Assembly: GCA_947623845.1 (NCBI GenBank)
Contig: CANQHM010000003.1
Coordinates: forward strand, 1-49,412
Direction of reading: 5' to 3'
Length of the DNA stretch: 49,412 bases
Source of the DNA: an uncultured Bacilli bacterium
GTDB lineage: Bacteria; Bacillota_I; Bacilli_A; RF39; UBA660
Part shown: positions 6,302 to 21,508 of the stretch, piece after piece
Layout: each line of letters starts with the position of its first letter
How positions within the stretch are numbered: position 1 is the first letter of the stretch
Translations under genes and position numbers: made by a program
Notes under the pieces: model-generated
Told to the model about the DNA's origin: nothing
The model's input: only the letters and a program-made list of their open reading frames with translations
The model's database searches: none

Positions 6302-9300
6302 TTAATTTTTTTCTTCATTTTCATCAAATCTTTTATAATAATTATATCTTTCTTTAGCATAATTTATTTCTTGTTCTAGTAATTCTTTAGCTAAATTTTC
6401 ATCTTTTATTTTTAAAGCATTATATCTTACTTCATTATTTAATAATTCTTCATATTTGGTAAAATCAGGTTCTTTACTATCTATTACTAAATTCTTGGTA
6501 TCAGGTATATAACGCATTAAGATATTATAACCACATTCAACACTTAGTTTTTCTTCATTAATAGCGTTGATCATTCCGCCCTTTATTCCTTGTTCAATAC
6601 AAGGTGAATAAGCAATGATGATAGCAGGACCTTGGTGTTCCATGGCTTCTTTGAATGCTTTAATGGCTTGCATAAAGTTAGAACCTAAGGCGATACTTGC
6701 AACATAACAATTAGGGTAACTCATCGCAATTTTAAATAAATCTTTTTTATAAGTTTTCTTACCTAGATTAGCAAATTCCGCGACTTGACCTAGATGACTA
6801 GATTTGGAAGCTTGACCACCAGTATTAGAATAAACCTCGGTATCTAATACTAACATTTTAATATTAGAGTTACTAGATAAGACATGATCAATACCACCAA
6901 AGCCGATATCATAAGCCCATCCATCTCCCCCAATCGCCCATACCGTTCTGGTATTTAAATATGGTAATAAGACTTTTAAATCATTAGGTATTTCTTTATC
7001 TTTTAATTTATCTTTTACTTCCGTAGTAATATCATAATCATTACTATTTTCTAACCATTTTTGATATAACTCTTTAACATCAGCTGTAACACTATCAATA
7101 CTATGTTCCATTACATTTTTAATTTGTTCTTTTTTATTAGCATAAGAAACTAACATACCATAAGCAAATTCCGCGTTATCTTCAAATAATGAGTTCGCCC
7201 AAGGAATAGTGTATGGCATGGAAGGAATACTTCCCCCATAGATAGATGAACATCCCGTGGCATTAGCAATAACGATTTCTTTTCCAAATAATTGAGTTAG
7301 TAACTTAATATAAGGCGTTTCTCCACAACCCGCACATGCTCCGGAAAAGCAGAAACGACATTTTTCCATTTGACTTCCTGGAACGGTAAATTTATTCATT
7401 ACTTTAGGGTTTTCATATTCATATAACTCGGTAGCATAGCGCGCTTTTTCTTCATCAAATGGCCCGAAAGATAAAGCTTTCTTCCCGTTCTTACCTGGAC
7501 AAGTATTAATACATAGACCACATCCGGTACAATCACTTTCACTAACTACTATTTCATAACCATATTCTTTATTACTAAATAATGGTATCGCATTATCATT
7601 ATTTTTAGACACAATTGGTCTTATAACCGCATGAGGGCAGACGATACTACAAAAACCACATTCAATACAATTTTCTTTATGCCATTTTGGCACTAAATTA
7701 GAAATACCTCTTTTATCTCTTTTACTAGTACCATTAGGAAACATACCTGTTTCGTAACCAGCAAGATTTCCAACCGTTAAGTTATTACCTTCTCTACTGT
7801 TTATCATTTCATAAACATCTTTAGGTTTAACTAATTCAAAACTACCTGTTAAATCACCCGTAATTTCTAAAACACTATCTAGAGCTTCTTTAATCGCTTT
7901 TTGATTTGCTAAAACGATATCTTCGCCCTTAGTTCTAAATTTTTCAACGGTCTTTAAAGTTAATTCTACCGAATCCGTAAATCCTAATAAACGTAAGATG
8001 ATGGTTTCCATAATCTTACTAATCTTACCTCTAATCCCCGCTTTATTAGCAAGAGCGGAAGCATTAACAATTAATACTTTAATATTATTATCTTTAATAT
8101 ATTTAGCATCACTTTTACTTAATAATTTATTAATATCTTTTTCTTCCGTATTAATAAGTAAAACACCATTAGGTTTTATCTTTTTAATTATTTGATATTT
8201 CTTAAAATAATTATCTTTAGTTACGACAACAATAGAGGATTTATCGATATAATATGGGGCATGAATTTCCTCATCACTTATTCTTAAGTGACTTATAGTA
8301 ACACCTCCACTTTTTTTAGAATCATATTCAAAATAACCTTGGGCATATTTATCGGTATTATTAGCAATGGTAGTAATAATACTTTTACTACTACTAACCA
8401 TACCATCACTACCATATCCATATATTTTTACTTCTTTAAAATTACTAGGTAATTCATAATCATATTTCTTTAAAGAAGAATAATTTTCATCATCAATAAT
8501 TGATATCGTAAATCTTTCTTGAGGTTTATCTTCTAACATTTTATAAACACTATAAATATCTTTTGGCGTAGTATCTTTACTAGATAAACCATAAACACCA
8601 CCAACAATGGTAATATCAGTTTCTTTTAAAGCATTAACGACATCTAAGTATAAAGGTTCGCCACTACTTCCTAATTCTTTAGTACGATCTAAGACGGCGA
8701 TTCTTCTTACGGATTTAGGTATAATATTTTTTAATAATTCATTACTAAATGGACGATATAGATGAACTACTACTACCCCATATTTTTTACCTTTACTATT
8801 TAAATCTTTGACTACTTCTTTAATCGTATCCGTTACACTACCCATAGCAATAATGATATCAGTAGCATTAGGATCTCCATAATAATTAAAGGGTTTATAA
8901 TCGGTATGACATATTTTATTTAAGTCTTCCATATATTTACTAACAACATTTATCGCATTTTTATAGTATTTTTCTCTACCTACGACACATTGAAAATAAA
9001 TATCATCATTATATGCTAACCCTCTTTGATACTTAGTATCTAAATTTAAAGATTTATTTTTAAATTCTTCTATTTTTTGATAATCAATTAATTTAAGTAA
9101 ATCTTCTTCTTGTATTTCTGGTATTTTATTAAGTTCATGACTAGTTCTAAAACCATCAAAGAAATGTAGAAATGGTAAAGAAGAAGATATCGCACTTAAG
9201 TGGGCGATTGCGGCCATAAACTCCGCTTCATAAACATTAGCAGAAGATAACATACAAAATCCTGTTTGTCTTACAGCATAGATATCACTATGATCACCAA

Positions 9301-11331: not shown

Positions 11332-13254
11332 TTATTCACCATCTTGAGCGGTTAAAGTAATTCGAAATGAATGAGCACCATGTAATGACCCATCCCAGTC
11401 AGTAAATGCAAATATTCCTGAATTTGTTTTATTGCCTGCACTACCTCCTCGAGCCATCCAAGTTTTATTATTATGTAAAAAACTAGTATGGCCATCATCC
11501 CATCCTCCAAGAGCCGTTCCATAAGCACTTAAGACTTCTTTTGTTGCGTCGCCTAAGTGACCGCGCACTTGAGTTAAATTACTAATTTCATCGTATGAAT
11601 ATATATCATAGTATCTAGAATCAGGGTAATTTTCAATTGTAAAACCAGCGTAGCTTGGATTAAAATTTCCATTTGAATCTACCATATTTCCCATAACACG
11701 TTCCCACATTCCCCCATTCATATCATATATTCCATACATATTTCCAGTGGTACTTGCTTTTGTTCCTTCTTCATTCCATGTTCTTCCAGTAATACAACTT
11801 TTTGCATCAGATTGTGCACCATCATAGGCTTCAACACTAACATAACTACAACCAGTAATTGTACCATCCCATGCTCCACCATAAGTACCATGATTTGTAT
11901 TATTAATCCAGATTCTGCAATTATTATTTTCTTCACCCTCAATAAAGCAAACTTTTTCTTCATCATATGCGATTTTATTAAAAATACCATACATAGATTG
12001 TGATAAATATGCTACTGCTCCCCATTCGCTATTCTTCGTCATATGTGTATCAACTTTAGTAGAATCTAAACTATATTTTGTATTTGATTCTATAGCTCTA
12101 GATGCCAAAAACATTGTACTAACATTTCTTGTAGTAATAGATGCTTTATTTGGTAAAATAGTTATATCATTTAACGGTTCTTTTGAATTATTTACATTAC
12201 TTTCTAGTGACTTATTTTCTTCACTTGGTTCAAATTTTCCTACCCATATTCCTGGTAATTCGGTTTCTCCAAATGTAAATGCGGGATGTGTGTACCATTC
12301 TCCATTTTGAGCCGGTTCTCCAGTTTTCTTATTTGTACACGTTTCTTTTACTTGACCTAAAGTTTCAGAATTTGTTGGATTACTATATTTACACTCTATA
12401 TCACCAGTATTATCTGTTCCATTTTCAAAATGTATATTTATCATTTGAGGTTCGCTGCTTTGCCCATCTATAGCATTAAATAGTTGATATTTATATCTTG
12501 GTATATATACATACATTTGAAGTATATCTTCCATAGGAATTATTTTATTTGGGGTACTACTATACTTTTCATAATTTGCACTATTTACTAATACCGCATT
12601 CGCCCATTCACTTACTGTATAGTCATACCATTTATCGTTGGTATCTGCAACTATAACATTTCCATTTCCATCAAAATCTACTGGAATTAAGCCTTGATAT
12701 AATTTTACTTCTGGATTTGTTGCTAATGTTATATTTTCTTCTTTATCTATTTGAATCTTTCCAGTATATGTTTTACCTTGATTATCATTTTGGTTAGTAT
12801 GAGTATCAACAAATTCTATTTTTAATTCATATTCGTCAGTAACATCAGCATCAATAGAAATATCGGTTAAGATATAGGCATTTCCTGATGGTACTACTCC
12901 ACTTTTTTCTTCTGTTCCATTCTTCTTTAAAGTATATCTTAAATCTGTTTTATCTTGTAATGTATTTGTTACTTCATCTAATTTAATATTATACTTAGCA
13001 GGAAAGTTACCAGTATTTTGTACTTTAAATTTTTTAGTTGTTGATTCTCCTGGTTGCATTTTATCTAATGATATACTACTACCATCTATATAAGTAATCT
13101 CCATCTTACCGGCTTTAACAATATTTTCTTTAGCATCTTCATTACCTTTTACATTGGCAGTAAAATATGCAAAAGAAAAACCTATTCCTATACTTAATGC
13201 AATAACTACTGCTGAGATGACTAATATATTTCTTGTTATCTTTTTATCTTCCAT
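11332..13254 (-). CDS. Membrane-anchored surface protein with C-terminal C-type-lectin/FGE-like domain (paralog A)
   Basis: About 640 residues. The N-terminus has a membrane segment (residues 8-30, ending FSFAYF) and a TasA/camelysin-like region of about 150 residues (GKMEITYIDG, MQPGESTTKKFKVQNTGNFPAKYNI). The rest resembles formylglycine-generating-enzyme/C-type-lectin folds used as DGR variable proteins: ILQMYVYIPRYKYQLFN, GIWVGKFEPS, NSEWGAVAYLSQSMYG, STTGNMYGIYDMNGGMWE, RGHLGDAT, and the terminal WMARGGSA...HSFRITLTAQDG. ATG 13254 is used, with AGGTG 7 nt upstream; an in-frame GTG lies at 13263. It is 16 bp after paralog B, so they form one operon. Its 3' end has ordinary A-rich codons, unlike B. 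Confidence 0.75.
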   Translation of the reverse strand: MEDKKITRNILVISAVVIALSIGIGFSFAYFTANVKGNEDAKENIVKAGKMEITYIDGSSISLDKMQPGESTTKKFKVQNTGNFPAKYNIKLDEVTNTLQDKTDLRYTLKKNGTEEKSGVVPSGNAYILTDISIDADVTDEYELKIEFVDTHTNQNDNQGKTYTGKIQIDKEENITLATNPEVKLYQGLIPVDFDGNGNVIVADTNDKWYDYTVSEWANAVLVNSANYEKYSSTPNKIIPMEDILQMYVYIPRYKYQLFNAIDGQSSEPQMINIHFENGTDNTGDIECKYSNPTNSETLGQVKETCTNKKTGEPAQNGEWYTHPAFTFGETELPGIWVGKFEPSEENKSLESNVNNSKEPLNDITILPNKASITTRNVSTMFLASRAIESNTKYSLDSTKVDTHMTKNSEWGAVAYLSQSMYGIFNKIAYDEEKVCFIEGEENNNCRIWINNTNHGTYGGAWDGTITGCSYVSVEAYDGAQSDAKSCITGRTWNEEGTKASTTGNMYGIYDMNGGMWERVMGNMVDSNGNFNPSYAGFTIENYPDSRYYDIYSYDEISNLTQVRGHLGDATKEVLSAYGTALGGWDDGHTSFLHNNKTWMARGGSAGNKTNSGIFAFTDWDGSLHGAHSFRITLTAQDGE

Positions 13255-13270
13255 TATTTGCACCTACAAT

Positions 13271-15244
13271 CTAGTTAGCTCCATCTTGGGCAGACAACAC
13301 CGAGCGGAACGAAAAAGCGCTGCCCGTCCCACCGCCAGCACGACCGATGGCGACGACGCCGACCCAAGCGCCGTCATGGTAAACACCACCGCGCATGAAC
13401 CACGGCCACGAACCAGCTGAAGTAACGTAAGGGAAGTCTGTTAAATCACCATTCCATCCGCCTGGATTCTTTCCAAAATTTGCTAACGTTTCTCTTGTTG
13501 CATCTCCTAAATGACCACGTTCATGAGTTAGGTTACTATCACTAAATGTATACATATCATAATATTTAGCTTCTGGTAAAGCTGCAGCCTGTAATCCACT
13601 ACTTGCAATATATAAACCACCACCTGTTTGATTTACGGTCGCACCCATTACATATTCCCAAGTTCCACCTGCTGTATCATATAGTCCATACATATTTCCT
13701 GTTGTACTTGCTTTTACTCCATTTGCAGTATTCCATCTTTTATCTGCATCACATTTTGCTACTGTATTTTCTTCCGTATTCCATTTTACTCCGGCACTTA
13801 CACTTTCTCCTACACATCCAGTGTAAGTTCCTCCATAAGCCCAAGTTCCACTTGTCCCTGTACCTTGTGCTGTGTTGTTTATCCATACTTCACAATTATC
13901 TTTGGTCATTCCTGCTATGTTACAAGTATTTTCATCTTTATATATTCCGTATGCACTTTGTGTTAGATATGCAATTGCACCCCATTCAGTATTTCTAGCC
14001 ATGTGGGTATCTATCTCTGTAGAGTTTAAGTTATACTTAGTATTTGTTTCAATTGTTCTTTCTGCCGTAAAGGCTGTTGTTATATTTTTTAAGACCATAC
14101 TTGTCTTATTTGGTAATATTGTTATTTCACTTATAACATTAGTTTTTCTACCATTTGGATCAGTTGGATCACTTGGTTCAAACTTTCCTACCCATATACC
14201 ACCAAGTTCGGTATCACCAAAAGTAAAAGCAGGATGGGTATACCATTCGCCATTCGAAGCATTTTTACAATCTTCTTGTACTGTTCCATCTTTCATATCA
14301 GTATAAGTACAAGATACTGTTCCAGTATTATCTTCCCCAGTTTCAAAAGCAATATTTATTATTTGTTTAGGTGTTCCTTCTAGTCCAACATTAAATAATT
14401 GATATTTATATCTTGGTATCCATACATACATTTGAAGTATATCATCTTCATTTACTATATCTCCATCTTTTAATGTCCCATCTTCATTATAAAATTTATT
14501 TACGATATCTTTATTAGTATGATCTATAAGGACGGCATTCGCCCATTCATGTTCATCGTAGTTATACCATTCTTGAGTAACATCTGCTATTACTATTTGA
14601 TTTGATTCATTATAATAAATTGGTATTAATCCTTGATATAATTCAGGAATATTTGCTCCACTATTATCTTTATATAGAGGTACATAAACATATTTTTCTG
14701 CTTCTTCATTAGAATCTACTACAATTTTAAAGTCTAACTTTCTATTCTTGTTATCATTTTGATTTTTATCTACTAAATCTTCTTTAAATTTAACTTCTAA
14801 TTCATAATTATCTACACCACCAGTAGTAATGGTTTGATTAACTAAGATATAACCATCAGTATATGGTAATGTTTCATTTTCTACTACTGGTTCGCCATTT
14901 CTTTTTAAGGTATATTCTAAATCTCCTTTATCTCTAAAGTTATTTTCTATTACATCAATTTTAAGATTATAATTAGCATCAAGATTCCCCTCATTAGTTA
15001 TTCTAAACTTATTAGTTAGATAATCACCTGGCATAGCATTATCTAGTGTAACTAAGTCACTATCTTCATACTTAATCTTCATATTACCCATAACTACTGT
15101 AATAGGTTGTGAGGCATCATTGCCCTTTATTTGGGTAGTAAAATAAGCGTATGATACTGTTATAATACATATAACATTTATCATAACGACACTAATTAAT
15201 AATAACAATGACGTCCTATCAAATAATCTTTCTTTTTTCTTCAT
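13271..15244 (-). CDS. Membrane-anchored surface protein with DGR-type variable C-terminus (paralog B)
   Basis: About 657 residues, same layout as paralog A: membrane helix (LLLISVVMINVICIITVSYA) followed by YFTTQIKGND, a TasA/camelysin-like domain (MKIKYEDSDLV, DYLTNKFRITNEGNLDANYNL), then the lectin/FGE-like domain with MYVWIPRYKYQLFN, GIWVGKFEPSD, NTEWGAIAYLTQSAYGIY, STTGNMYGLYDTAGGTWEYVMG and RGHLGDATRET. The last 50 residues, from WPWFMRGG to AFSFRSVLSAQDG, are encoded by strikingly GC-rich, A-poor DNA (see 13283-13437). I start at ATG 15244, with GAGGTG 6 nt upstream. The promoter is at 15286-15314, and an XRE regulator is divergent. Confidence 0.78.
   Translation of the reverse strand: MKKKERLFDRTSLLLLISVVMINVICIITVSYAYFTTQIKGNDASQPITVVMGNMKIKYEDSDLVTLDNAMPGDYLTNKFRITNEGNLDANYNLKIDVIENNFRDKGDLEYTLKRNGEPVVENETLPYTDGYILVNQTITTGGVDNYELEVKFKEDLVDKNQNDNKNRKLDFKIVVDSNEEAEKYVYVPLYKDNSGANIPELYQGLIPIYYNESNQIVIADVTQEWYNYDEHEWANAVLIDHTNKDIVNKFYNEDGTLKDGDIVNEDDILQMYVWIPRYKYQLFNVGLEGTPKQIINIAFETGEDNTGTVSCTYTDMKDGTVQEDCKNASNGEWYTHPAFTFGDTELGGIWVGKFEPSDPTDPNGRKTNVISEITILPNKTSMVLKNITTAFTAERTIETNTKYNLNSTEIDTHMARNTEWGAIAYLTQSAYGIYKDENTCNIAGMTKDNCEVWINNTAQGTGTSGTWAYGGTYTGCVGESVSAGVKWNTEENTVAKCDADKRWNTANGVKASTTGNMYGLYDTAGGTWEYVMGATVNQTGGGLYIASSGLQAAALPEAKYYDMYTFSDSNLTHERGHLGDATRETLANFGKNPGGWNGDLTDFPYVTSAGSWPWFMRGGVYHDGAWVGVVAIGRAGGGTGSAFSFRSVLSAQDGAN
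13283..13437 (-). other. Candidate diversity-generating-retroelement variable region (VR)
   Basis: In 13321-13380, 43 of 60 bases are G or C, in a window that is otherwise strongly AT-rich, and only 6 are A on the coding strand. From the codon after MRGG to the TTT before SFR, 21 of 24 codons end in C or T, three end in G and none in A. That is the pattern left when a template of AAY codons is copied with random substitution at adenines. It sits exactly at the 3' end of a lectin-fold gene, where DGR variable regions lie. No template repeat or reverse transcriptase occurs in the window. Confidence 0.7.
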
Positions 15245-15285
15245 ATGAACACCTCTACTATATATTCTTCTCAATTATTAATATA

Positions 15286-15314
15286 ATTATATCTCAATTT
15301 ACGCCATTGTACAA
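15286..15314 (-). promoter_or_regulatory. Promoter of the paralog B-A operon
   Basis: TTGTAC (15314-15309), a 17-nt spacer and TATAAT (15291-15286) read toward the ATG at 15244. The -35 overlaps the palindrome TTGTACAA shared with the opposite promoter. Confidence 0.75.
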
Positions 15315-15335
15315 TATTTTTATTTCTTTTATGAT
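15307..15335 (+). promoter_or_regulatory. Divergent promoter of the double-XRE regulator gene
   Basis: TTGTAC (15307-15312), a 17-nt spacer and TATGAT (15330-15335) read toward the gene at 15354. Both divergent -35 boxes lie in the palindrome TTGTACAA (15307-15314). Confidence 0.65.
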
Positions 15336-15353
15336 ATTTTTTATAAAAAAGAG

Positions 15354-15824
15354 ATGATGCTAATGGCTCCAAAATTAAGATTAAGAGATCTTAGAGAAGA
15401 TAAATTTTGGAGTCAAAAGGAAGTTGCAGATTTGCTTAGAATAAAGAGAAGAACTTATGTAGAGTATGAACTAGAAAATAATATGATTCCTATAGAGTTA
15501 TTATCTAAGCTTGCAGTTATATATCATGTTAGTGTTGATTATATTTGTAGACTTACTAACATTCCTACCGCTTATGGAACATATAAGTTATATAAACAAG
15601 ATATTTTCTTAAGAAATATAAGATTATTAAGAGAGAAAGGTAATTTAAGTCAAAAGGATTTTGGTGCTATTTTCTCTTATAGTCAAAATACTATTAGTGA
15701 ATATGAAAAGGGTTTAAGAAGTATTCCTGTTGATTTCTTAATTAACTTAAGTAAGCATTATAAAATACCTACTGATTATATTCTTGGTACAATTTATAGT
15801 AGAACACCTGTTGCTAATAAGTAA
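15354..15824 (+). CDS. Regulator with two XRE-type helix-turn-helix domains
   Basis: A 156-residue protein with two tandem Cro/CI-type HTH domains: residues about 8-65 (LRDLREDKFWSQKEVADLLRI and VSVDYICRLT) and about 80-145 (IRLLREKGNLSQKDFGAIF, NTISEYEKGLRSIP and IPTDYILGT). Such proteins usually repress. It is transcribed away from the paralog B-A operon with overlapping -35 elements, so it is likely its regulator and its own. ATGs at 15354, 15357 and 15363 are possible; the last has a weak GAG site upstream. A hairpin with T5 at 15840-15858, which is also the first copy of the 27-nt palindrome family, may terminate it. Confidence 0.82.
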   Translation: MMLMAPKLRLRDLREDKFWSQKEVADLLRIKRRTYVEYELENNMIPIELLSKLAVIYHVSVDYICRLTNIPTAYGTYKLYKQDIFLRNIRLLREKGNLSQKDFGAIFSYSQNTISEYEKGLRSIPVDFLINLSKHYKIPTDYILGTIYSRTPVANK

Positions 15825-15835
15825 TGAACATTTAA

Positions 15836-16119
15836 AATTGGGCAGACATAGTTTGCCCTTTTTGAATTCTATGTAATCGGTTTATGTAAATTCGGTCAAC
15901 AATGTTGACTGAATTGATTATCTACTACATAATCGTAAATTTCGTCAACAATGCTGTCGAAATTCAAAGAAAGATCTTTATCTTAATTCTGCAAGCATTG
16001 CCTGCAGAATTTAAAATTAAAAGAACTACTTTAGTTGGATTTGCTAAACAGTGTCTGGCAAATTCAAAATTAAAAACTTTTCATCTCAGTTAAATTGCCC
16101 AGGCACTGCCTGGGAAATT
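15836..16119. repeat. Array of six 27-nt variable-arm palindromes (copies 1-6)
   Basis: Copies at 15836-15862, 15889-15915, 15938-15964, 15985-16011, 16038-16064 and 16093-16119. Each follows AATT-N7-CA-N-TG-N7-AATT, where the right N7 is the complement of the left. Arm sequences differ from copy to copy (left arms such as CGGTCAA, CTGCAAG, GCCCAGG) while 9-12 of 13 positions still pair. Start-to-start distances are 53, 49, 47, 53 and 55 bp, so the array is nearly regular. The segments between copies are AT-rich and unrelated. No gene is seen in this 300-bp interval. Confidence 0.88.
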
Positions 16120-16124
16120 CACAA

Positions 16125-17117
16125 TTAATATTTTTCAACCTCTTTAATTAATTCTTCTGTAGTTGGTAAATGAAGTAAATACTTAGAAGCATATATTTCA
16201 CTATTTTTAGGTAAAGCATATTTTACTACTGTTTTATTATGGTTAGTAGATAAAAGGATTCCTACTGTTGGATTATCACTTTCTTTTTTGATATTTTCAT
16301 CATAATAATTCACATACATATTTATTTGACCTATATCTTTATGGGTTACTTCTCCAATTTTTAATTCTAGTACAACATAACAATTTAAAATATTATTATA
16401 AAATACTAAATCGGGGTAATAATTTTTATTGTCAATTTTTAATTTTACTTCACTACCAACAAAAGCGAATCCTTTACCTAATTCTAATAAGAATTCTTTT
16501 AGGTGATTTAGTATTTCATTTTCTAAATCTTTTTCTTTGTAGTTAGAACCTAAATTTAGGAACTCTAAAACATAAGGATCTTTTACCAAATCTTTACTGG
16601 TATTTATAACATTACCTTGCATTGCTAACTTATTATCTTCATCACTAGATGTTAATAATCTTTCATATAAATGAGACTGAATCATTCTTCTTAGAGTTCT
16701 TACATCCCATCTACTATTTATACATTCTTGCATATAAAAATTTCTAATATTTTCATCTTTTACTTTTAAAAGTTCTAGATAGTGACTCCAACTCAATTGC
16801 GACAACAATGTTGTCGCAATTGGATAACAAACATAAAACTTTCTCATTCTTTCTAGATTTCTTTTAGAAAAACTTTTCCCATATTGTGCTGTTAGTCTCA
16901 TAGATAAATTTCTTAGGATATGTTCTCCATATTTAGCTTTTTCTTTCCCTTTTTGCAAATTATTAACAATATTCTCCCCAATATGCCAATATAAATCTAG
17001 TAAGATAGTATTAACTGTTATATAAGCTTTTCTTTTACTACTTTCAATTAAGTCTTTAATTTCTAAGTACATTTTATTTTCTAATTCTTGTTCTTCTTTA
17101 GTTTGTAATTCATTCAT
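16125..17117 (-). CDS. DUF1016/YhcG-type PD-(D/E)XK nuclease, copy 1
   Basis: A 330-residue protein with an N-terminal DUF1016 helical (winged-helix-like) region (LYWHIGENIVNNLQKG, YGEHILRNLSMRLT, SWSHYLELLKV) and a C-terminal PD-(D/E)XK nuclease core: YYPDLVFYNNILNCYVVLELK, giving the catalytic Asp and E-x-K, then HKDIGQINMYVNYYD. Cellular role is unknown for the family; defence or genome upkeep is suspected. Residues 100-107 (IATTLLSQ) are encoded by a perfect 27-nt palindrome. RBS AGGAGG, 9 nt before ATG. The C-terminal half is almost identical in DNA to copy 3, which indicates recent duplication or gene conversion. Confidence 0.88.
   Translation of the reverse strand: MNELQTKEEQELENKMYLEIKDLIESSKRKAYITVNTILLDLYWHIGENIVNNLQKGKEKAKYGEHILRNLSMRLTAQYGKSFSKRNLERMRKFYVCYPIATTLLSQLSWSHYLELLKVKDENIRNFYMQECINSRWDVRTLRRMIQSHLYERLLTSSDEDNKLAMQGNVINTSKDLVKDPYVLEFLNLGSNYKEKDLENEILNHLKEFLLELGKGFAFVGSEVKLKIDNKNYYPDLVFYNNILNCYVVLELKIGEVTHKDIGQINMYVNYYDENIKKESDNPTVGILLSTNHNKTVVKYALPKNSEIYASKYLLHLPTTEELIKEVEKY
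16795..16821. repeat. In-frame palindrome inside nuclease copy 1 (13/13 pairs)
   Basis: A perfect member of the 27-nt family: left arm AATTGCGACAACA, centre A, right arm its exact complement. It spans the third base of codon 99 to the second base of codon 108, just before LSWSHY. Confidence 0.9.
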
Positions 17118-17154
17118 TTTATAATCCTCCTATTTTTAATAATTATTTTAGTTC

Positions 17155-17345
17155 AATTGCGAATTCAATGTGTTCGAAATTCAATAATATTGATTTTAAT
17201 TTAATTTGTAAGACAAAGTATCCCAATTTAAAAATTAAAAAATATCAATTCGGCAACCAATGCTTGCCGAATTAGGACATATTATATAAAACTCTTCTTT
17301 TTTAATTATTCATATTTCAAATTGGGCAGGCATGCGTGCCAAATT
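17155..17345. repeat. Palindrome array between nuclease copies 1 and 2
   Basis: Clear members lie at 17155-17181, 17247-17273 (left arm CGGCAAC, 12 of 13 paired) and 17320-17345 (26 nt, no central base). A decayed one lies at 17203-17229 with the right ends but little pairing. Spacing is 48, 44 and 73 bp. Nothing else is seen in this intergenic stretch apart from the ribosome site of copy 1's upstream region. Confidence 0.8.
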
Positions 17346-17351
17346 TAAAAA

Positions 17352-18299
17352 TTAATATTTTTCCACTTCCTTAATTAATTCTTCTTTAGTTGGTAAATGA
17401 AGTAAATATTTAGATAAGTATATTTCACTATTATTTGGTAGAGCATATTCAACGATGGTTTTATTCTTTTCTTTCGCAAGTAAAATACCAACTGTTTTAT
17501 TTTCATCTTCTTCTTTCATGTGTTTATCATAATAATTGATATATGATGTTAACTGTCCTATATCTTTATGAGTCATTTCTCTTCTTTTTAATTCAATTAT
17601 GACAAAGCATTTTAAGATACGATTATAAAAAACTAAATCTACATAATATATTTCTCTATTAATTCTTATTGGGACTTCACTACCTACATACATAAATCCT
17701 TTTCCTAATTCTAATAAAAATTCTTTCAAATGATTTAGAATTTCTCTTTCTAAATCTTTTTCTTTATAATTAGTATCTAAATTAAGAAATTCAAGTACAT
17801 AAGGATCTTTTACCAAATCTTTACTGGTATTTATAACATTACCTTGAACTGCTAACTTATTATCTTCATCATTAGAACCTAATAACCTTTCGTATAGATG
17901 AGACTTAATCATTCTTTCTAATTCTCGGTAACTCCAACTAGAATTGATGCATTCTTGCATATAAAAGTTTCTTTTTCTTTCATCTTTAACTCTAATTAAT
18001 ATTTTATAATATGTCCAACTTAATTGGGCATTCACTGCGTGCCCAATTGGAAAACACCTATAAAATTGACGTGCATACTTTAAATTGCGTAAAGAATAAC
18101 CTTTGCCATATTGCTCTGTTAATCTTAGAGATAAATTTTTCAATATATATTCTCCATATTTAGCTCTTTTATCACCTTTTTGTAGATTATTAACGATATT
18201 CTCACCAATGTGCCAATATAAATCTAGCAAAATAGTATTAACTACTCTATGCGCTTTTCTCTTACTATTTTCAATTAAATCTTTAATTTCTAAATACAT
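17352..18299 (-). CDS. DUF1016/YhcG-type PD-(D/E)XK nuclease, copy 2, 5' end disrupted
   Basis: A 315-residue frame with the same two domains as copy 1: LYWHIGENIVNNLQKGDKRAK, SWTYYKILIRVKDE, then YYVDLVFYNRILKCFVIIELK with the catalytic Asp and E-x-K, and HKDIGQLTSYINYYD. It is the most divergent of the three (for example YVDLV in place of YPDLV). The normal start (ATG 18385, with AGGAGG) is out of frame, because a 41-bp tandem duplication at 18300-18381 shifts the reading: translation from it stops after about 25 codons. The internal ATG 18299 lacks a good ribosome site, so the gene is probably off or weakly expressed in this state. An in-frame palindrome lies at 18022-18048. Confidence 0.8.
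   Translation of the reverse strand: MYLEIKDLIENSKRKAHRVVNTILLDLYWHIGENIVNNLQKGDKRAKYGEYILKNLSLRLTEQYGKGYSLRNLKYARQFYRCFPIGHAVNAQLSWTYYKILIRVKDERKRNFYMQECINSSWSYRELERMIKSHLYERLLGSNDEDNKLAVQGNVINTSKDLVKDPYVLEFLNLDTNYKEKDLEREILNHLKEFLLELGKGFMYVGSEVPIRINREIYYVDLVFYNRILKCFVIIELKRREMTHKDIGQLTSYINYYDKHMKEEDENKTVGILLAKEKNKTIVEYALPNNSEIYLSKYLLHLPTKEELIKEVEKY
18022..18048. repeat. In-frame palindrome inside nuclease copy 2
   Basis: A 27-nt family member with left arm GGGCATT and right arm CGTGCCC (11 of 13 pairs). It is in the same codon phase and place as in copies 1 and 3, encoding IGHAVNAQ before LSW. Confidence 0.88.
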
Positions 18300-18381
18300 T
18301 TTGTTTTCTAATTCTTGTTCTTCTTTAGTTTGTAATCCATTTTGTTTTCTAATTCTTGTTCTTCTTTAGTTTGTAATCCAT
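18300..18381. repeat. 41-bp perfect tandem duplication at the start of nuclease copy 2
   Basis: Two identical 41-bp units (18300-18340 and 18341-18381) cover the first codons (NGLQTKEEQELENK). The unit length is not a multiple of three. Loss of one unit would restore the frame seen in copies 1 and 3. Confidence 0.97.
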
Positions 18382-18421
18382 TCATTTTATAATCCTCCTA
18401 TTTTAACAATGACTTTTCATC

Positions 18422-18447
18422 AATTGGGCAGGCATGCGTGCCAAATT
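18422..18447. repeat. Palindrome copy between nuclease copies 2 and 3
   Basis: A 26-nt member, identical to the copy at 17320-17345 including the flanking AAATTTAAAAATTAATATT. The whole 3' flank of the nuclease gene has thus been duplicated together with the palindrome. Confidence 0.88.
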
Positions 18448-18453
18448 TAAAAA

Positions 18454-19446
18454 TTAATATTTTTCAACCTCTTTAATTAGTTCTTCCCTAGTTGGTAAAT
18501 GGAGTAAATACTTAGAAGCATATATCTCACTATTTTTAGGCAAAGCATACTTTACTACTGTTTTATTATGGTTAGTAGATAAAAGGATTCCTACTGTTGG
18601 ATTATCACTTTCTTTTTTGATATTTTCATCATAATAATTCACATACATATTTATTTGACCTATATCTTTATGGGTTACTTCTCCAATTTTTAATTCTAGT
18701 ACAACATAACAATTTAAAATATTATTATAAAATACTAAATCGGGGTAATAATTTTTATTGTCAATTTTTAATTTTACTTCACTACCAACAAAAGCGAATC
18801 CTTTACCTAATTCTAATAAGAATTCTTTTAGGTGATTTAGTATTTCATTTTCTAAATCTTTTTCTTTGTAGTTATCACCTAAATTAAGAAACTCTAATAC
18901 ATAAGGATCTCTTACTAAGTCCTTGCTTGTATTTATAACATTCCCTTGTATTGCTAACTTGTTATCTTCATCACTAGATGTTAATAACCTTTCGTATAGA
19001 CAAGACATAATCATTCTTCCTAATTCTCGATAATTCCATCGGGAATTAATGCATTCTTGCATATAAAATTTTCTTTTATATTCTTCTTCAACTTTTAAAA
19101 GTTCTACATAATGACTCCAGCTCAATTGGTCAGGCATTGCCTGACCTTTTTGATAATATAAATAAAACTTTCGCATATTTTTCATATTTGTTAGAGAATA
19201 ACCTTTCCCATATTCCAAAGTAAATCTTATCGAAAGATTCTTTAAAATACTTTCGCCATATTTAGCTCTTTTCTCTCCTTTTTGCAAGTTATTAACAATA
19301 TTTTCTCCAATGTGCCAGTATAAATCCAGTAAGATAGTATTAACTGCAACATACGCTTTTCTTTTACTACTTTCAATTAAATCCTTGATTTCCAAATACA
19401 TTTTGTTTTCTAATTCTTGTTCTTCTTTAGTTTGTAATCCATTCAT
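18454..19446 (-). CDS. DUF1016/YhcG-type PD-(D/E)XK nuclease, copy 3
   Basis: A 330-residue protein with intact start (ATG 19446, AGGAGG upstream). The N-terminal half differs from copy 1 (for example YSLTNMKNMRKFYLYY and QAMPDQLSWSHYVELL), while the nuclease half (about residues 195-330) is nearly the same in protein and DNA, including YYPDLVFYNNILNCYVVLELK. This pattern suggests shared catalytic halves with diversified recognition halves. The in-frame palindrome is at 19124-19150. Confidence 0.88.
   Translation of the reverse strand: MNGLQTKEEQELENKMYLEIKDLIESSKRKAYVAVNTILLDLYWHIGENIVNNLQKGEKRAKYGESILKNLSIRFTLEYGKGYSLTNMKNMRKFYLYYQKGQAMPDQLSWSHYVELLKVEEEYKRKFYMQECINSRWNYRELGRMIMSCLYERLLTSSDEDNKLAIQGNVINTSKDLVRDPYVLEFLNLGDNYKEKDLENEILNHLKEFLLELGKGFAFVGSEVKLKIDNKNYYPDLVFYNNILNCYVVLELKIGEVTHKDIGQINMYVNYYDENIKKESDNPTVGILLSTNHNKTVVKYALPKNSEIYASKYLLHLPTREELIKEVEKY
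19124..19150. repeat. In-frame palindrome inside nuclease copy 3
   Basis: A 27-nt member with left arm GGTCAGG and right arm CCTGACC (11 of 13 pairs counting the outer bases). It encodes KGQAMPDQ at the same codons as in copies 1 and 2. Confidence 0.88.
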
Positions 19447-19482
19447 TCTCTAATCCTCCTATTTTAATAATAACTTTTCATC

Positions 19483-19670
19483 AATTGAGCAGGCATGCCT
19501 GCCCAATTAAATATTACATAACCCCTTTATTCTTTTTAATTTGAAGTGTATAACCAATTTGGAACGCAGTAAGTTTGCAATTTAGATAATGTTGATACAC
19601 TTCAATTGCGCAGACAATGTCTGCGTAATTGGAATAATTAATTAATTGGCTCAGCAATGCTGAGCTTTTT
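19483..19670. repeat. Palindrome array upstream of nuclease copy 3
   Basis: Clear members are at 19483-19508 (26 nt), 19604-19630 (left arm GCGCAGA, 12 of 13 paired) and 19644-19670 (left arm GCTCAGC). A decayed one lies at 19556-19582. The last is followed by a run of T on the plus strand and so looks like a terminator, but no plus-strand gene precedes it. Confidence 0.82.
19541..19605. repeat. 11-bp inverted repeat enclosing a decayed palindrome
   Basis: TTGAAGTGTAT (19541-19551) and ATACACTTCAA (19595-19605) are perfect inverted arms 43 nt apart. The enclosed stretch contains the decayed 27-mer, and the right arm runs into the next palindrome. It could be a cruciform or a structured RNA. 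Confidence 0.6.
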
Positions 19671-19803
19671 TTTAATATTTACGACACGCGAGGAAGTGTT
19701 GTAGATATTTAAGGCAAAAATTAAGATTTGCATCTATTTTACCTTTCATAATATATATTAACAATTTTTTGATGATTTCCTTTTTTTTACGAAAATTTTT
19801 TCT
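19671..19803. other. Non-coding stretch with one small hairpin
   Basis: AT-rich spacer between the palindrome array and the paralog C terminator. I see only one short stem (TACGACAC at 19680-19687 with GTGTTGTA at 19696-19703) and no open frame or promoter I would defend. Confidence 0.5.
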
Positions 19804-19833
19804 AAAAAAATAAAAATTCTCAAATATTGAGAA
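19804..19833 (-). terminator. Rho-independent terminator of paralog C
   Basis: On the minus strand TTCTCAA-TAT-TTGAGAA is followed by TTTTTATTTTTTT, 13 bp after the stop at 19847. Confidence 0.75.
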
Positions 19834-19846
19834 CTTTATTACAATT

Positions 19847-21508
19847 TTATTTTACTCCATCCTGAGTAGTAAAAACAATTCGGAACGAACCATAGCCGAG
19901 TGCACGGCCACTCTCACCATACGTACTCCACACACCTGTACGTGAACGATCATTAACATGACCACCACGTATAATCCAAAAAGCTTTAGAATTTAGGAAA
20001 ACTGTATAATCACTATACCATCCACGAGTTTCTCTGGTGGCATCTCCTAAATGTCCTCTGATTATATCACTAGATGCTCCATATGCGTACATATCATAAT
20101 ATTTAGCATCAGGTATTATACTGGAAGATTCATTAAAGCCGGCATCGCTCGAATAAAATGCTCCATCAGTATTTACCATATTTGCCATCACATATTCCCA
20201 AGCACCGCCAGACATATCATATATACCAGTTATATTATTCGTCGTACTTGCGTGAACTCCACCTTGGGTCCAACTAAAGGCATCAGCACAAGTAGTAGTT
20301 GGATCTACTGATACAGAAGAACCAGCACATCCAGTTGTATAACTACTATTCATCCATACTTCTGCTCCAGATTCTATTTCATTACTGTTACTATTAAATC
20401 TTCCATACTTACTTTGAGTTAAGTATGCCGCTGCTCCCCATTCTATGTTTTTCATTATATGGTTGTCGATTTCAAGAGGATTTATATTATAAGTTGTAGA
20501 ATATTTTTCTTCTATATCTCTTACTCCTTGAAACATATATGCTACTTGTAAGCTTCTTAATGATGAAACATTGGGTATTATTTTAAGATTTGTTACTGAT
20601 TTTTCGCTTGAATTATATGCTCCACTACTTTCAAATTTTCCTACCCAAATACCAGTAAGTTCAGTTCCACTTTCTTCTAAAGTTCCTTTAAAAGTGAAAG
20701 CTGGATGGGTATACCAATCTCCATTATTAGCTTTTTTCTCACCATTTTTACAATCTTCCATTATTATTCCATTCTCCCCTTTAGTATATTTACAAGTTAC
20801 ATTACCAGTCGTTTCTATACCATTTTCAAAAACAATATTTATCATTTGTTCCGGTACAGTTTCATTATTAACATTAAATAATTGATATTTGTATCTAGGA
20901 ATCCACACATACATTTGAAGTATATCAGTATCTAAGCTAAGAAGTGTACCAGCTTTATCTTTTCTTAATTGATTATCTTGAGTTAATTCATTATATTTTT
21001 CTGTTGTTACTAATACCGCATTCGCCCATCTATGATCTCCATAGTTATACCATTCACTATCAGTATCAGCTACTTTTATTGTTCCATCATCATCTATAGT
21101 AACAGGAATTAAACCTTGAAATAATTCTGGTTCATTTGGTTTTTTACCAAATACAACAGTACATTTATTAGGTTTATTAGTTCTTAATACTAATTCCCAA
21201 GTATCTTTATCAAAAGTGGCACTTGTCCCTTCTTTATCACAATCTAATCTTTCAAAAACATAACCATCTTCTTTACCAGGGAATTCAGTTTTAGTTTCTC
21301 CATCTACTAATACTGATAAATATATATCACGTTTTTTAAACTCACCTACTGTATTAAATACTAATTTTTGAGTGTGTCTTACTTGGTATAGCGCAAATGA
21401 GTAACTTACTACTACAATTAATAATAAGGTACATAAACCTAATATTATTTTATTTTTATTACCATTTCTTATTTTACTTAATTCTTTATCGGGATTAAAT
21501 CTTTTCAT
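19847..21508 (-). CDS. Membrane-anchored surface protein with C-terminal C-type-lectin/FGE-like domain (paralog C)
   Basis: A 553-residue protein. A cytoplasmic basic start (KRFNPDKELSKIRNGNKNK) precedes a membrane helix (IILGLCTLLLIVVVSYSFAL). The ectodomain opens with a region different from the TasA-like one of A and B, then shares the lectin/FGE-like part: ELFQGLIPV, MYVWIPRYKYQLFN, GIWVGKFESS, NIEWGAAAYLTQSKYG, STTNNITGIYDMSGGAWEYVM, RGHLGDATRETRGW and the end IIRGGHV...GSFRIVFTTQDG. The last 30 codons are somewhat GC-richer than the gene but not A-free, so this may be an older or less edited variable region. RBS AAGGAG. The promoter and operator-like repeats lie between it and a divergent XRE gene. 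Confidence 0.75.
   Translation of the reverse strand: MKRFNPDKELSKIRNGNKNKIILGLCTLLLIVVVSYSFALYQVRHTQKLVFNTVGEFKKRDIYLSVLVDGETKTEFPGKEDGYVFERLDCDKEGTSATFDKDTWELVLRTNKPNKCTVVFGKKPNEPELFQGLIPVTIDDDGTIKVADTDSEWYNYGDHRWANAVLVTTEKYNELTQDNQLRKDKAGTLLSLDTDILQMYVWIPRYKYQLFNVNNETVPEQMINIVFENGIETTGNVTCKYTKGENGIIMEDCKNGEKKANNGDWYTHPAFTFKGTLEESGTELTGIWVGKFESSGAYNSSEKSVTNLKIIPNVSSLRSLQVAYMFQGVRDIEEKYSTTYNINPLEIDNHIMKNIEWGAAAYLTQSKYGRFNSNSNEIESGAEVWMNSSYTTGCAGSSVSVDPTTTCADAFSWTQGGVHASTTNNITGIYDMSGGAWEYVMANMVNTDGAFYSSDAGFNESSSIIPDAKYYDMYAYGASSDIIRGHLGDATRETRGWYSDYTVFLNSKAFWIIRGGHVNDRSRTGVWSTYGESGRALGYGSFRIVFTTQDGVK

Follow-up and report, generated by a model that had tools for sequence, protein, structure and literature searches.

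What are the palindromes that crowd a short stretch of an uncultured Bacilli genome around three DUF1016/YhcG nuclease genes, and what do they have to do with these enzymes? We analysed the whole stretch of DNA of 49,412 nucleotides that contains them (hereafter the window), in which an earlier note had listed 16 such elements and proposed an association with DUF1016. The DUF1016/YhcG nuclease domain, which bears an E-D-E(I/L/V)K motif, has been predicted to be similar to Holliday-junction resolvases (PMC1189080), and the parts of the published family descriptions that were examined give no established function. Likewise, no description of palindromes in DUF1016/yhcG was found in the portion of the literature consulted, which was mostly without subscription papers and without bioRxiv and does not establish absence from print.

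All three proteins of the locus exceed the Pfam cut-offs for DUF1016_N followed by the YhcG_C PDDEXK nuclease and thus belong to the DUF1016/YhcG family (Table 1), a widespread family that comprises at least about 8000 protein candidates (all at E <= 1e-5); NCBIfam has no model for gene A. For two predicted structures of moderate confidence (pLDDT 64 and 72, pTM 0.47), Foldseek returned no match at E <= 0.001, Hje and NucS being among the weak matches, and a sequence search of solved structures gave a best E of 0.27. Of 5426 complete E. coli genomes, 4420 contain DNA matching yhcG (80% or more of the gene in 3499), and no relatives of the window proteins were found in viral contigs. A site-specific integrase was also seen upstream of DUF1016 in four plasmid loci (L052, L204, L210, L211).

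The window was scanned with a covariance model of the element (27 positions, 11 pairs; E up to 10, default filters). The 16 listed palindromes were all returned, between 15836 and 19670, and no site was found in the rest of the 49,412 bases (E <= 10). As the model was trained on the listed and related elements, the recovery of the 16 is by construction and the absence elsewhere is the real test. Two further copies, described as decayed (17203 and 19556), were missed by the model. The strict pattern AATT-N7-CA-N-TG-N7-AATT, which all copies had been said to fit, occurs nine times in the window (0.01 expected from shuffles) and describes nine of the 16 exactly. The other seven deviate: three are 26-nt palindromes with a CATG centre (17320, 18422, 19483) and four depart at one end (15836, 16038, 19124, 19644), 15836 also having CATAG as its centre. 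The general form is AATT or AAAA, a 7-bp variable arm, CA-N-TG, the complementary arm and AATT. The elements had further been described as wrapped around the genes; this is correct for the extragenic copies, but those at 16795, 18022 and 19124 lie inside genes A, B and C, at equal codons. The original observation is confirmed, and the phenomenon is larger than first described.

Table 1. Genes and palindromes of the DUF1016 locus (positions in the window)
Feature	Position	Strand	Description	Evidence
DUF1016 gene A	16125..17117	-	330 aa; DUF1016_N + YhcG_C PDDEXK nuclease	Pfam PF17761 2.6e-47, PF06250 3e-56; PADLOC PDC-S02
DUF1016 gene B	17352..18299	-	315 aa as ORF; ~50-nt tandem duplication upstream interrupts longer frame	
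DUF1016 gene C	18454..19446	-	330 aa; C-terminal part nearly identical to gene A, mid N domain different	
Gene A internal palindrome	16795..16821	.	codons preceding QLSW	perfect 13/13
Gene B internal palindrome	18022..18048	.	codons as in gene A, arms different	
Gene C internal palindrome	19124..19150	.	codons as in gene A, arms different	
Array palindrome 1	15836..15862	.		arms 14/14 identical to internal palindrome of relative gene L012 (23/27 overall)
Array palindrome 2	15889..15915	.		strict pattern + covariance model
Array palindrome 3	15938..15964	.		strict pattern + covariance model
Array palindrome 4	15985..16011	.		26/27 identical to internal palindrome of relative gene L003
Array palindrome 5	16038..16064	.		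covariance model
Array palindrome 6	16093..16119	.	directly beyond gene A stop	arms 12/14 identical to L004 internal palindrome
Palindrome upstream of gene A	17155..17181	.	~37 nt upstream of start	outer arm bases similar to gene A internal (GCGA)
Palindrome between genes B and A	17247..17273	.		27/27 identical to reverse complement of palindrome inside relative gene L002
26-nt palindrome	17320..17345	.	directly beyond gene B stop	covariance model
26-nt palindrome	18422..18447	.	between gene C stop and gene B	sequence identical to 17320
26-nt palindrome	19483..19508	.	~36 nt upstream of gene C start	inner arm bases similar to gene C internal (CAGG)
Palindrome upstream of gene C	19604..19630	.	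flanks weakly gene-like, - strand	
Palindrome upstream of gene C	19644..19670	.		27/27 identical to reverse complement of palindrome inside L001 DUF1016 reading frame (position 9020 on)

In most DUF1016/YhcG genes, the codons that immediately precede the conserved LSW helix in the DUF1016_N domain contain a palindrome. Among 144 best-scoring genes (151 unique ORFs minus 7 without the W column or enough context), 121 have a palindrome scoring 10/13 or more ahead of the W codon of the LSW motif, compared with 69 of 2880 shuffled segments; 23 score below 10/13. The centre lies exactly at -18 from the W codon in 106 of them, encoding aligned residues, and where the codons have shifted the palindrome is still present, at -24 to -36. 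A second draw of 21 lower-scoring genes from the same family of genomes gave 19 at 8/9 or better (28 of 1050 shuffled, 2.7%) and 14 at 9/9 (1 of 1050 shuffled). Bearers occur in Bacilli, Bacteroidota, Cyanobacteriota, Actinomycetota and Pseudomonadota, and one codon position is kept across several phyla despite a gene GC content of 0.34 to 0.66. Of 13 named loci examined separately, nine have a palindrome of at least 8/11 at -18. In L204 and L205 there are two per locus, at -48 to -99; L206 lacks one at the W-codon place, and L207 is without annotation and of uncertain frame. Chance palindromes of 8-10/11 were also noticed elsewhere in the genes of these 13 loci. The yhcG gene of E. coli K-12 encloses three palindromes, as tandem copies.

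The palindrome is maintained as DNA, beyond the needs of the protein. With a fixed centre, 799 of 1071 pairs from 119 distinct genes are complementary against 456 expected by synonymous recoding (z 28.7), which rules out a by-product of the protein sequence. In a scan of 1023 gene positions, the palindrome position scores 7.67/9 and the runner-up 4.55. All seven arm positions covary (93 distinct 27-mers with their best centre at -18) and, on a C-domain tree, 119 two-sided changes in the arms stand against 44 others (99 of 130 genes). The arms are allele-specific: they are constant within a clade, yet one genome with eight DUF1016_N matches has different arms from match to match. Among protein regions outside the palindrome-coded residues (107 genes), none is clearly more informative on the arms than the C domain (mean MI/H 0.157-0.164 versus 0.149), and consequently no protein-DNA code was found.

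The link with DUF1016 was then considered in 19 genomes, picked for holding the family (initial scoring of at most 150 candidates per genome). Going by the matches listed, 47 of the 63 model sites fall in a DUF1016_N match or no more than 4 kb from one, a zone that makes up at most 1.6% of the sequence (genome sizes being rounded and one DUF1016 place, G063 C33, entered by hand in the distance count); the other 16 are more distant. Two outcomes named beforehand as speaking against the association were looked for, namely a genome-wide scatter regardless of DUF1016 and an arm complementarity no better than in shuffled sequence; neither was found, complementarity being far higher than under synonymous recoding, at other gene positions or in shuffles, and the association is strongly supported.

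In the resolvable cases, comparisons between alleles show a hypervariable segment that is exchanged by recombination and that contains the palindrome or has it at its 3' edge. The genes of genomes G313 and G527 are alike except mainly for a segment of ~160 nt that ends at the palindrome, and over the last 120 nt of this segment G527 is 98-100% identical to G303. In E. coli, the yhcG genes of K-12 and ECE204 differ sharply only at nt 240-420, palindromes included. The match to K-12 yhcG stops at the end of palindrome 3 in C43(DE3) and begins within palindrome 3 in an O6:H16 strain; in H122 and H123 it begins, among the matches listed, at nt 235, apart from the palindromes. Palindromes are fragile in general, so deletions and breakpoints at this place require no DUF1016 activity.

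Palindromes matching those of other alleles also stand in arrays beside some DUF1016 genes. In one genus, the arrays are made of ~53-nt fragments of the DUF1016 gene around differing palindromes, near the gene, regularly spaced (~50-55 nt) and with similar gene flanks as spacers. Expressed genes in three of its genomes match three different array units (84-93% over 60-71 nt), and all five expressed palindromes, of four types, match some unit at 25-27 of 27, whereas 85 palindromes from other genomes reach at most 23/27. The best unit in the own array gives 25, 24, 23, 24 and 25 of 27, the best match often being in another genome. In the window, 12 of the 13 extragenic copies were compared (18422 was omitted as identical to 17320): four share their arm sequence fully with palindromes located in genes of relatives, and for six the gene of some unrelated genome matches equally or better than the sister genes. 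Their flanks are weakly gene-like (combined z 2.1), and the array palindromes are preserved although these flanks are barely recognisable. Three facts are thus new with respect to the first reading: the family-wide coding location, the allele exchange, and the origin of one genus' arrays from DUF1016 fragments.

This anatomy was observed; for the action of the nuclease, we infer with the earlier note that the palindromes are its substrates, recognition sites or hairpins, RNA hairpins being the least supported of these options. We tentatively favour, at a little short of an even chance, a reading in which the palindrome serves the nuclease as its own DNA site and marks where the DNA breaks when the variable segment is exchanged, and the arrays are a bank of allele tags. 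The gene would thereby carry its own site for the DUF1016 nuclease, more likely recognised as an extruded cruciform or hairpin since the nuclease domain is predicted to be resolvase-like. A break at or beside the palindrome would allow another allele or paralogue to replace the variable segment and the palindrome that belongs to it. Copying of the fragment around the palindrome would build the arrays, whose copies may provide donor sequence or additional sites that act as targets or decoys. Specificity segment and DNA site would then travel jointly, as one exchangeable cassette. The tags and arrays point to an undescribed self-recognition or specificity-switching system. A more speculative extension, which we hold to be doubtful, is a nuclease whose reading frame contains its own address. 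A single DNA stretch would encode a variable protein loop and be the target, a cassette swap would change both, and the arrays would hand down a record of alleles encountered or used in the past. Their units would act as donors, decoys or targets, directed against rival DUF1016 alleles that arrive on incoming DNA.

Silent-cassette switching (Neisseria pilin, Borrelia vlsE) offers a parallel, with one expressed gene, a variable segment and partial variant copies nearby. As in such systems, the expressed segments of the genus match different silent units (5/5 genes). In contrast, the units are self-complementary, the product is a nuclease and the donor role is putative; moreover, at ~53 nt versus ~160 nt they do not contain the whole swapped segment and are therefore not complete donors.

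A rather unlikely alternative is that a DUF1016 homodimer binds its own palindrome sequence-specifically as duplex DNA, upstream of and inside the gene, for self-regulation or self-marking; since the two subunits would read the same half-site, the arms would have to be complementary. This would agree with the symmetry of the centre and ends themselves (CANTG, AATT), with the palindromes placed ~35-37 nt upstream of start codons in the window, with the clade-stable arms that differ among paralogous matches of one genome, and with arm sharing within a locus (0.675 versus 0.390 expected, p 0.0005; 1.00 in the Pseudomonas locus L204). However, many copies within a locus differ and are nevertheless self-complementary (outer triplet in 140 of 159 pairs), for which one dimer specificity is insufficient, and extragenic copies were seen at only 10 of 154 loci; the sharing and triplet counts exclude the G293 array and concern elements picked partly by complementarity.

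It is improbable that the palindromes act as an mRNA hairpin and as small array hairpin RNAs, bound or cut by the nuclease or guiding it. The strong covariation is as in structured RNA, the arrays are regularly spaced, and an ncRNA is reported to overlap the yhcG 5' UTR by 128 bp (PMC7967276). Against this, the coding-strand arm mismatches (A.C 18, G.T 5, other 15; 99 of 130 genes) are the reverse of G-U tolerance, although they may in part reflect codon bias, the symmetry of the central CA/TG continues into the would-be loop, and no Rfam family reaches its gathering score within 15200-20000.

Slightly more improbable is an absence of present function, quasi-palindrome (template-switch) correction keeping the palindrome and the arrays being debris of duplicated or decayed DUF1016 genes. 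The gene-flank spacers of the one genus would fit such debris, as would the extragenic copies at L043, L136 and L146, which lie, as read by eye, within apparent DUF1016 gene fragments. The single position over several phyla and a wide GC range, the persistence where codons moved, the lack of any other gene position behaving likewise and the window palindromes outlasting their flanks all speak against it.

A palindrome that moves in the manner of REP/RAYT or MITE elements, with DUF1016 as the mobilising enzyme, is very improbable. Extra copies occur near and sometimes far from the gene and in tandem within yhcG, but about three in four sites remain where DUF1016 is, the arms vary instead of repeating one conserved sequence, and the principal copy aligns as coding sequence and is not an insertion.

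Other known systems differ in comparable ways. In the RAYT model, REP palindromes are tied to one enzyme family. REP elements are palindromes of 20-40 bp in high copy across genomes (PMC7967276; PMC3733652). They repeat one conserved palindrome genome-wide, whereas the arms here depend on the allele and most sites keep to DUF1016 loci; the earlier rejection of REP/RAYT is upheld. So is that of CRISPR, which shares nuclease genes next to a regularly spaced array but has near-identical repeats and unique spacers, while the palindromes differ from unit to unit, are self-complementary and, in the genus, are separated by similar gene flanks. Integron attC sites resemble the palindromes in their variable stems, conserved ends and cassette arrays, and are recognised by their folded-back shape; here the site lies instead inside the nuclease coding sequence. 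Neither an integron integrase nor a transposase was found among the window proteins scanned (10 with Pfam, 7 with NCBIfam). Rickettsia palindromic elements are likewise read through in protein-coding genes but are in-frame insertions into unrelated genes, whereas the DUF1016 palindrome aligns between members of one family across phyla and is not an insertion relative to homologues, extra copies occurring in E. coli K-12 and at L204 and L205.

A conserved and covarying palindrome in the coding sequence provides a concrete handle on what DUF1016/YhcG acts on, and E. coli K-12 offers a testing ground for its role. If confirmed, this would be a coding segment shaped by the DNA structure that it forms, its amino acids obeying a base-pairing constraint, and a new way of diversifying a nuclease.

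All 16 palindromes claimed by the earlier note are present at its positions between 15836 and 19670, and no other site was found by the covariance model up to E = 10, in line with its statement that the element occurs nowhere else in the 49 kb (the model was trained on window and related elements, so that it recovers listed copies by construction; absence elsewhere is a test). The strict pattern (AATT-N7-CA-N-TG-N7-AATT) gave 9 matches in the window vs 0.01 expected, and a relaxed scan gave 15, of which 13 lie at the 15836-19670 locus, vs 0-3 in ten Markov sequences. The window is bacterial DNA (28% GC) encoding PolA and pyruvate:ferredoxin oxidoreductase, and its three DUF1016 genes all lie on the minus strand. 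The copies had been described as wrapped around these genes, which holds for most of them, but three sit within the genes, at equivalent codons in all three and directly before the conserved QLSW motif (Table). As side observations, about 50 nt are duplicated in tandem where gene B begins (its 5' end), which disrupts the frame from the upstream start, the annotated ORF beginning further in, and several array spacers show, by eye, short inverted repeats of their own.

Table. Coordinates of the features discussed (L numbers denote loci outside the window)
Feature	Sequence	Position
DUF1016 gene A; its palindrome	window	16125..17117; 16795
DUF1016 gene B; its palindrome	window	17352..18299; 18022
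DUF1016 gene C; its palindrome	window	18454..19446; 19124
Extragenic palindromes identical to sister-genome intragenic ones	window	17247; 19644
Tandem duplication, gene B	window	18299-18386
Array spacers with inverted repeats	window	15863-16092
Camelysin-like (Peptidase_M73) proteins	window	11332-15274
Similar-looking proteins	L001	5126-7723
Protein with two helix-turn-helix stretches	window	15354-15824
553-aa gene	window	19847-21508
Large secreted/surface protein genes	L002; L003	5605-7359; 6388-7710
Palindromes	L176	1394; 2830
Palindromes	L177	3417-3688
Palindromes	L178	3363-3427
Palindromes	L180	3087; 5796

The intragenic palindrome is a feature of the gene family. In the first relatives (Bacilli MAGs) it occupies the equivalent place before QLSW with arms individual to each, and the 6 strict-pattern sites in two of these genomes (2.2 Mb) all fall inside DUF1016_N matches (reversed-pattern control: 3 sites). 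Among 151 unique DUF1016 ORFs, 144 had the W column of the LSW motif and sufficient context; a palindrome with at least 10 of 13 complementary pairs within a 66-nt region surrounding the motif was found in 121 and not in 23, compared with 69 of 2880 shuffled segments. Its centre lies exactly 18 nt before the W codon (-18) in 106 of the 121, and some subfamilies have it at -24 to -36 or with an even centre. A later draw of 21 lower-scoring genes gave at least 7/9 pairs in 21, at least 8/9 in 19 and 9/9 in 14, with 18 at -18 (shuffled control: 244, 28 and 1 of 1050). The named records cover Nostoc, Segatella, Rhodococcus, Curtobacterium, Pseudomonas, Burkholderia, Hydrogenophaga, Abditibacteriota and a Wolbachia phage, with gene GC of 34-66%; of 13 named loci, 9 have the palindrome at -18, 2 have pairs at -48 to -99, 1 is ambiguous and 1 is without it. 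Pseudomonas and Burkholderia genes (L204, L205) contain two palindromes each, with identical or nearly identical arms, and the coding sequence of E. coli K-12 yhcG holds three, with a fourth directly after the stop codon. In genome G234 (L076/L195) the palindrome is retained in a DUF1016 gene with in-frame TGA codons; this organism may read TGA as Trp.

The palindrome is maintained at the level of DNA, and its arms are allele-specific. The centre was set at -18 for all 119 distinct genes, including those without a palindrome; of 1071 base pairs, 799 were complementary, where synonymous recoding that kept the codon usage of each gene predicts 456. The arm complementarity, which the earlier note had proposed to compare with shuffled sequence, is far above this recoding null (z = 28.7), and 71 of the 119 genes reach p <= 0.01 individually. 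When 1023 gene positions were scanned, the column six codons before W scored 7.67 of 9 and the runner-up 4.55 (mean 2.61, sd 0.56). The seven arm positions each take 3-4 Watson-Crick pair types among 93 distinct 27-mers that were picked for having their best centre at -18, and mutual information between paired positions is 0.91-1.50 bits vs 0.05-0.08 when shuffled. Parsimony on a tree of C-terminal parts only (130 genes, 99 used) counted 119 replacements of one pair by another, 38 losses of pairing and 6 regains. The palindrome spans about nine codons, corresponding to residues 99-108 of gene A, where the protein is variable. In two AlphaFold models (mean pLDDT 64 and 72) this stretch lies between helices 85-97 and 110-116 of the helical N domain, and the second model places a short helix at 100-104. 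Foldseek returned zero matches at E <= 0.001 for either model; its weak matches included, for both models, the Holliday-junction enzyme Hje (1ob8/1ob9) and, for the first model, NucS/EndoMS (2vld). According to a passage of a 2005 study, the YhcG nuclease domain was predicted to be nearest to YraN-like and archaeal Holliday-junction resolvases (PMC1189080).

Alleles exchange the segment adjoining the palindrome, which forms an edge of that segment or lies inside it. Between the genes of genomes G313 and G527, most 40-nt windows are 90-100% identical (one other 78%), and identity drops to 75, 78, 65 and 55% across the 160 nt ending at the palindrome. In that segment the gene of G527 is 85% identical to that of genome G303 over the first 40 nt and 98-100% over the remaining 120, vs 48-92% in many other windows. 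Between E. coli ECE204 and K-12 yhcG, successive 60-nt windows over the palindrome region contain 24, 20 and 32 differences, the next two 8 and 6, and the other 15 only 0-3. In C43(DE3) and nine other listed strains the K-12 match runs up to nt 406, where palindrome 3 ends; it begins at nt 385, within palindrome 3, in two, and at nt 235, away from the palindromes, in two others. Palindromes 2 and 3 are missing from an O157:H7 strain by an in-frame deletion and from an O111:H8 strain by a frameshifting one. Over much of the C-terminal part, window genes A and C share 98-100% identity, compared with 70-73% over nt 180-420.

Arrays contain palindromes like those of other alleles. In the related genomes G303, G293 and G313, a distance of 1.3-2.2 kb separates the DUF1016 gene from an array with a spacing of about 53 nt. 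The array spacers look like gene flanks, and therefore each unit is a DUF1016 allele fragment around its palindrome. Array matches were found in 7 of 19 genomes of the genus, and the expressed gene matches a different unit in G313 (93% over 71 nt), G293 (86%, 65 nt) and G523 (84%, 60 nt). The expressed palindromes of five genomes (four types) agree with the best unit in any array of the genus at 25, 25, 27, 26 and 25 of 27 positions, and with their own arrays at 25, 24, 23, 24 and 25; against the same arrays, no palindrome from 85 genes of other genomes scores above 23. Of 12 window extragenic palindromes tested, 4 have arms identical (14/14) to those of intragenic palindromes in two sister genomes, and for two the identity extends over all 27 nt. 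The best arm matches of the 12 average 11.2 of 14, whereas equal-sized sets from other genomes average 9.0 (p 0.0005) and random palindromes 7.0; for 6 of the 12, at least one gene among 77 from other genomes gives an equal or better match. Since their flanks are only weakly gene-like (combined z 2.1), these extragenic palindromes are mostly bare. Three lie about 35-37 nt upstream of DUF1016 start codons, one of them in the broken frame of gene B.

Further copies are concentrated around DUF1016 and not scattered regardless of it, the alternative raised by the earlier note: among 63 covariance-model sites in 19 genomes chosen for holding DUF1016, 29 lie inside a DUF1016_N match, 18 within 4 kb and 16 farther, so that 47 fall in at most 1.6% of the sequence; one genome had no site. 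An earlier set of 154 loci gave 130 elements inside DUF1016 frames and 17 outside (10 loci), vs 0 in one Markov replicate; some extragenic ones lie within apparent remnants of broken DUF1016 genes (L043, L136, L146). Loci L176, L177, L178 and L180 contain palindromes, several sharing arms, and no DUF1016 gene was found in the stretch examined.

In the window, camelysin-like proteins adjoin DUF1016, as does a 553-aa gene lacking a Pfam match; L001 has proteins that look similar to the camelysin-like ones, and a helix-turn-helix protein lies between the window's surface proteins and the array. Large genes for secreted or surface proteins of similar appearance adjoin DUF1016 in L002 and L003, the likeness being judged by eye. 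On four proteobacterial plasmids (L052, L204, L210, L211) the start of DUF1016 lies within a 4-nt overlap with a site-specific integrase gene, which suggests one operon. In Segatella hominis (L051), DUF1016 is placed inside a type I restriction system, between its methyltransferase gene and its specificity genes, where a single hypothetical gene also intervenes.

A duplex dimer site and a folded one are not distinguished by covariation among genes on its own. Arms common to palindromes of one locus (likeness 0.675 within vs 0.390 between loci, p 0.0005) favour a sequence-specific site; within-locus palindromes that differ yet stay complementary (140 of 159 pairs in the outer triplets, the elements being selected partly by complementarity) favour a folded one. 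The mismatch types (A.C 18, G.T 5, other 15) speak against a sense-strand RNA reading, though third-codon-position bias may contribute to them. Each known palindrome or cassette system that was considered departs from this one in at least one tested feature, and such palindromes are not reported in titles or abstract openings of the DUF1016/yhcG literature among the matches listed; the literature consulted comprised passages of PMC1189080, PMC4316617, PMC7967276 and PMC11341870. We suggest that the DUF1016 nuclease acts on the palindrome inside its own gene, most likely in an extruded or folded form, and that this action would drive or direct the exchange of the adjoining segment.
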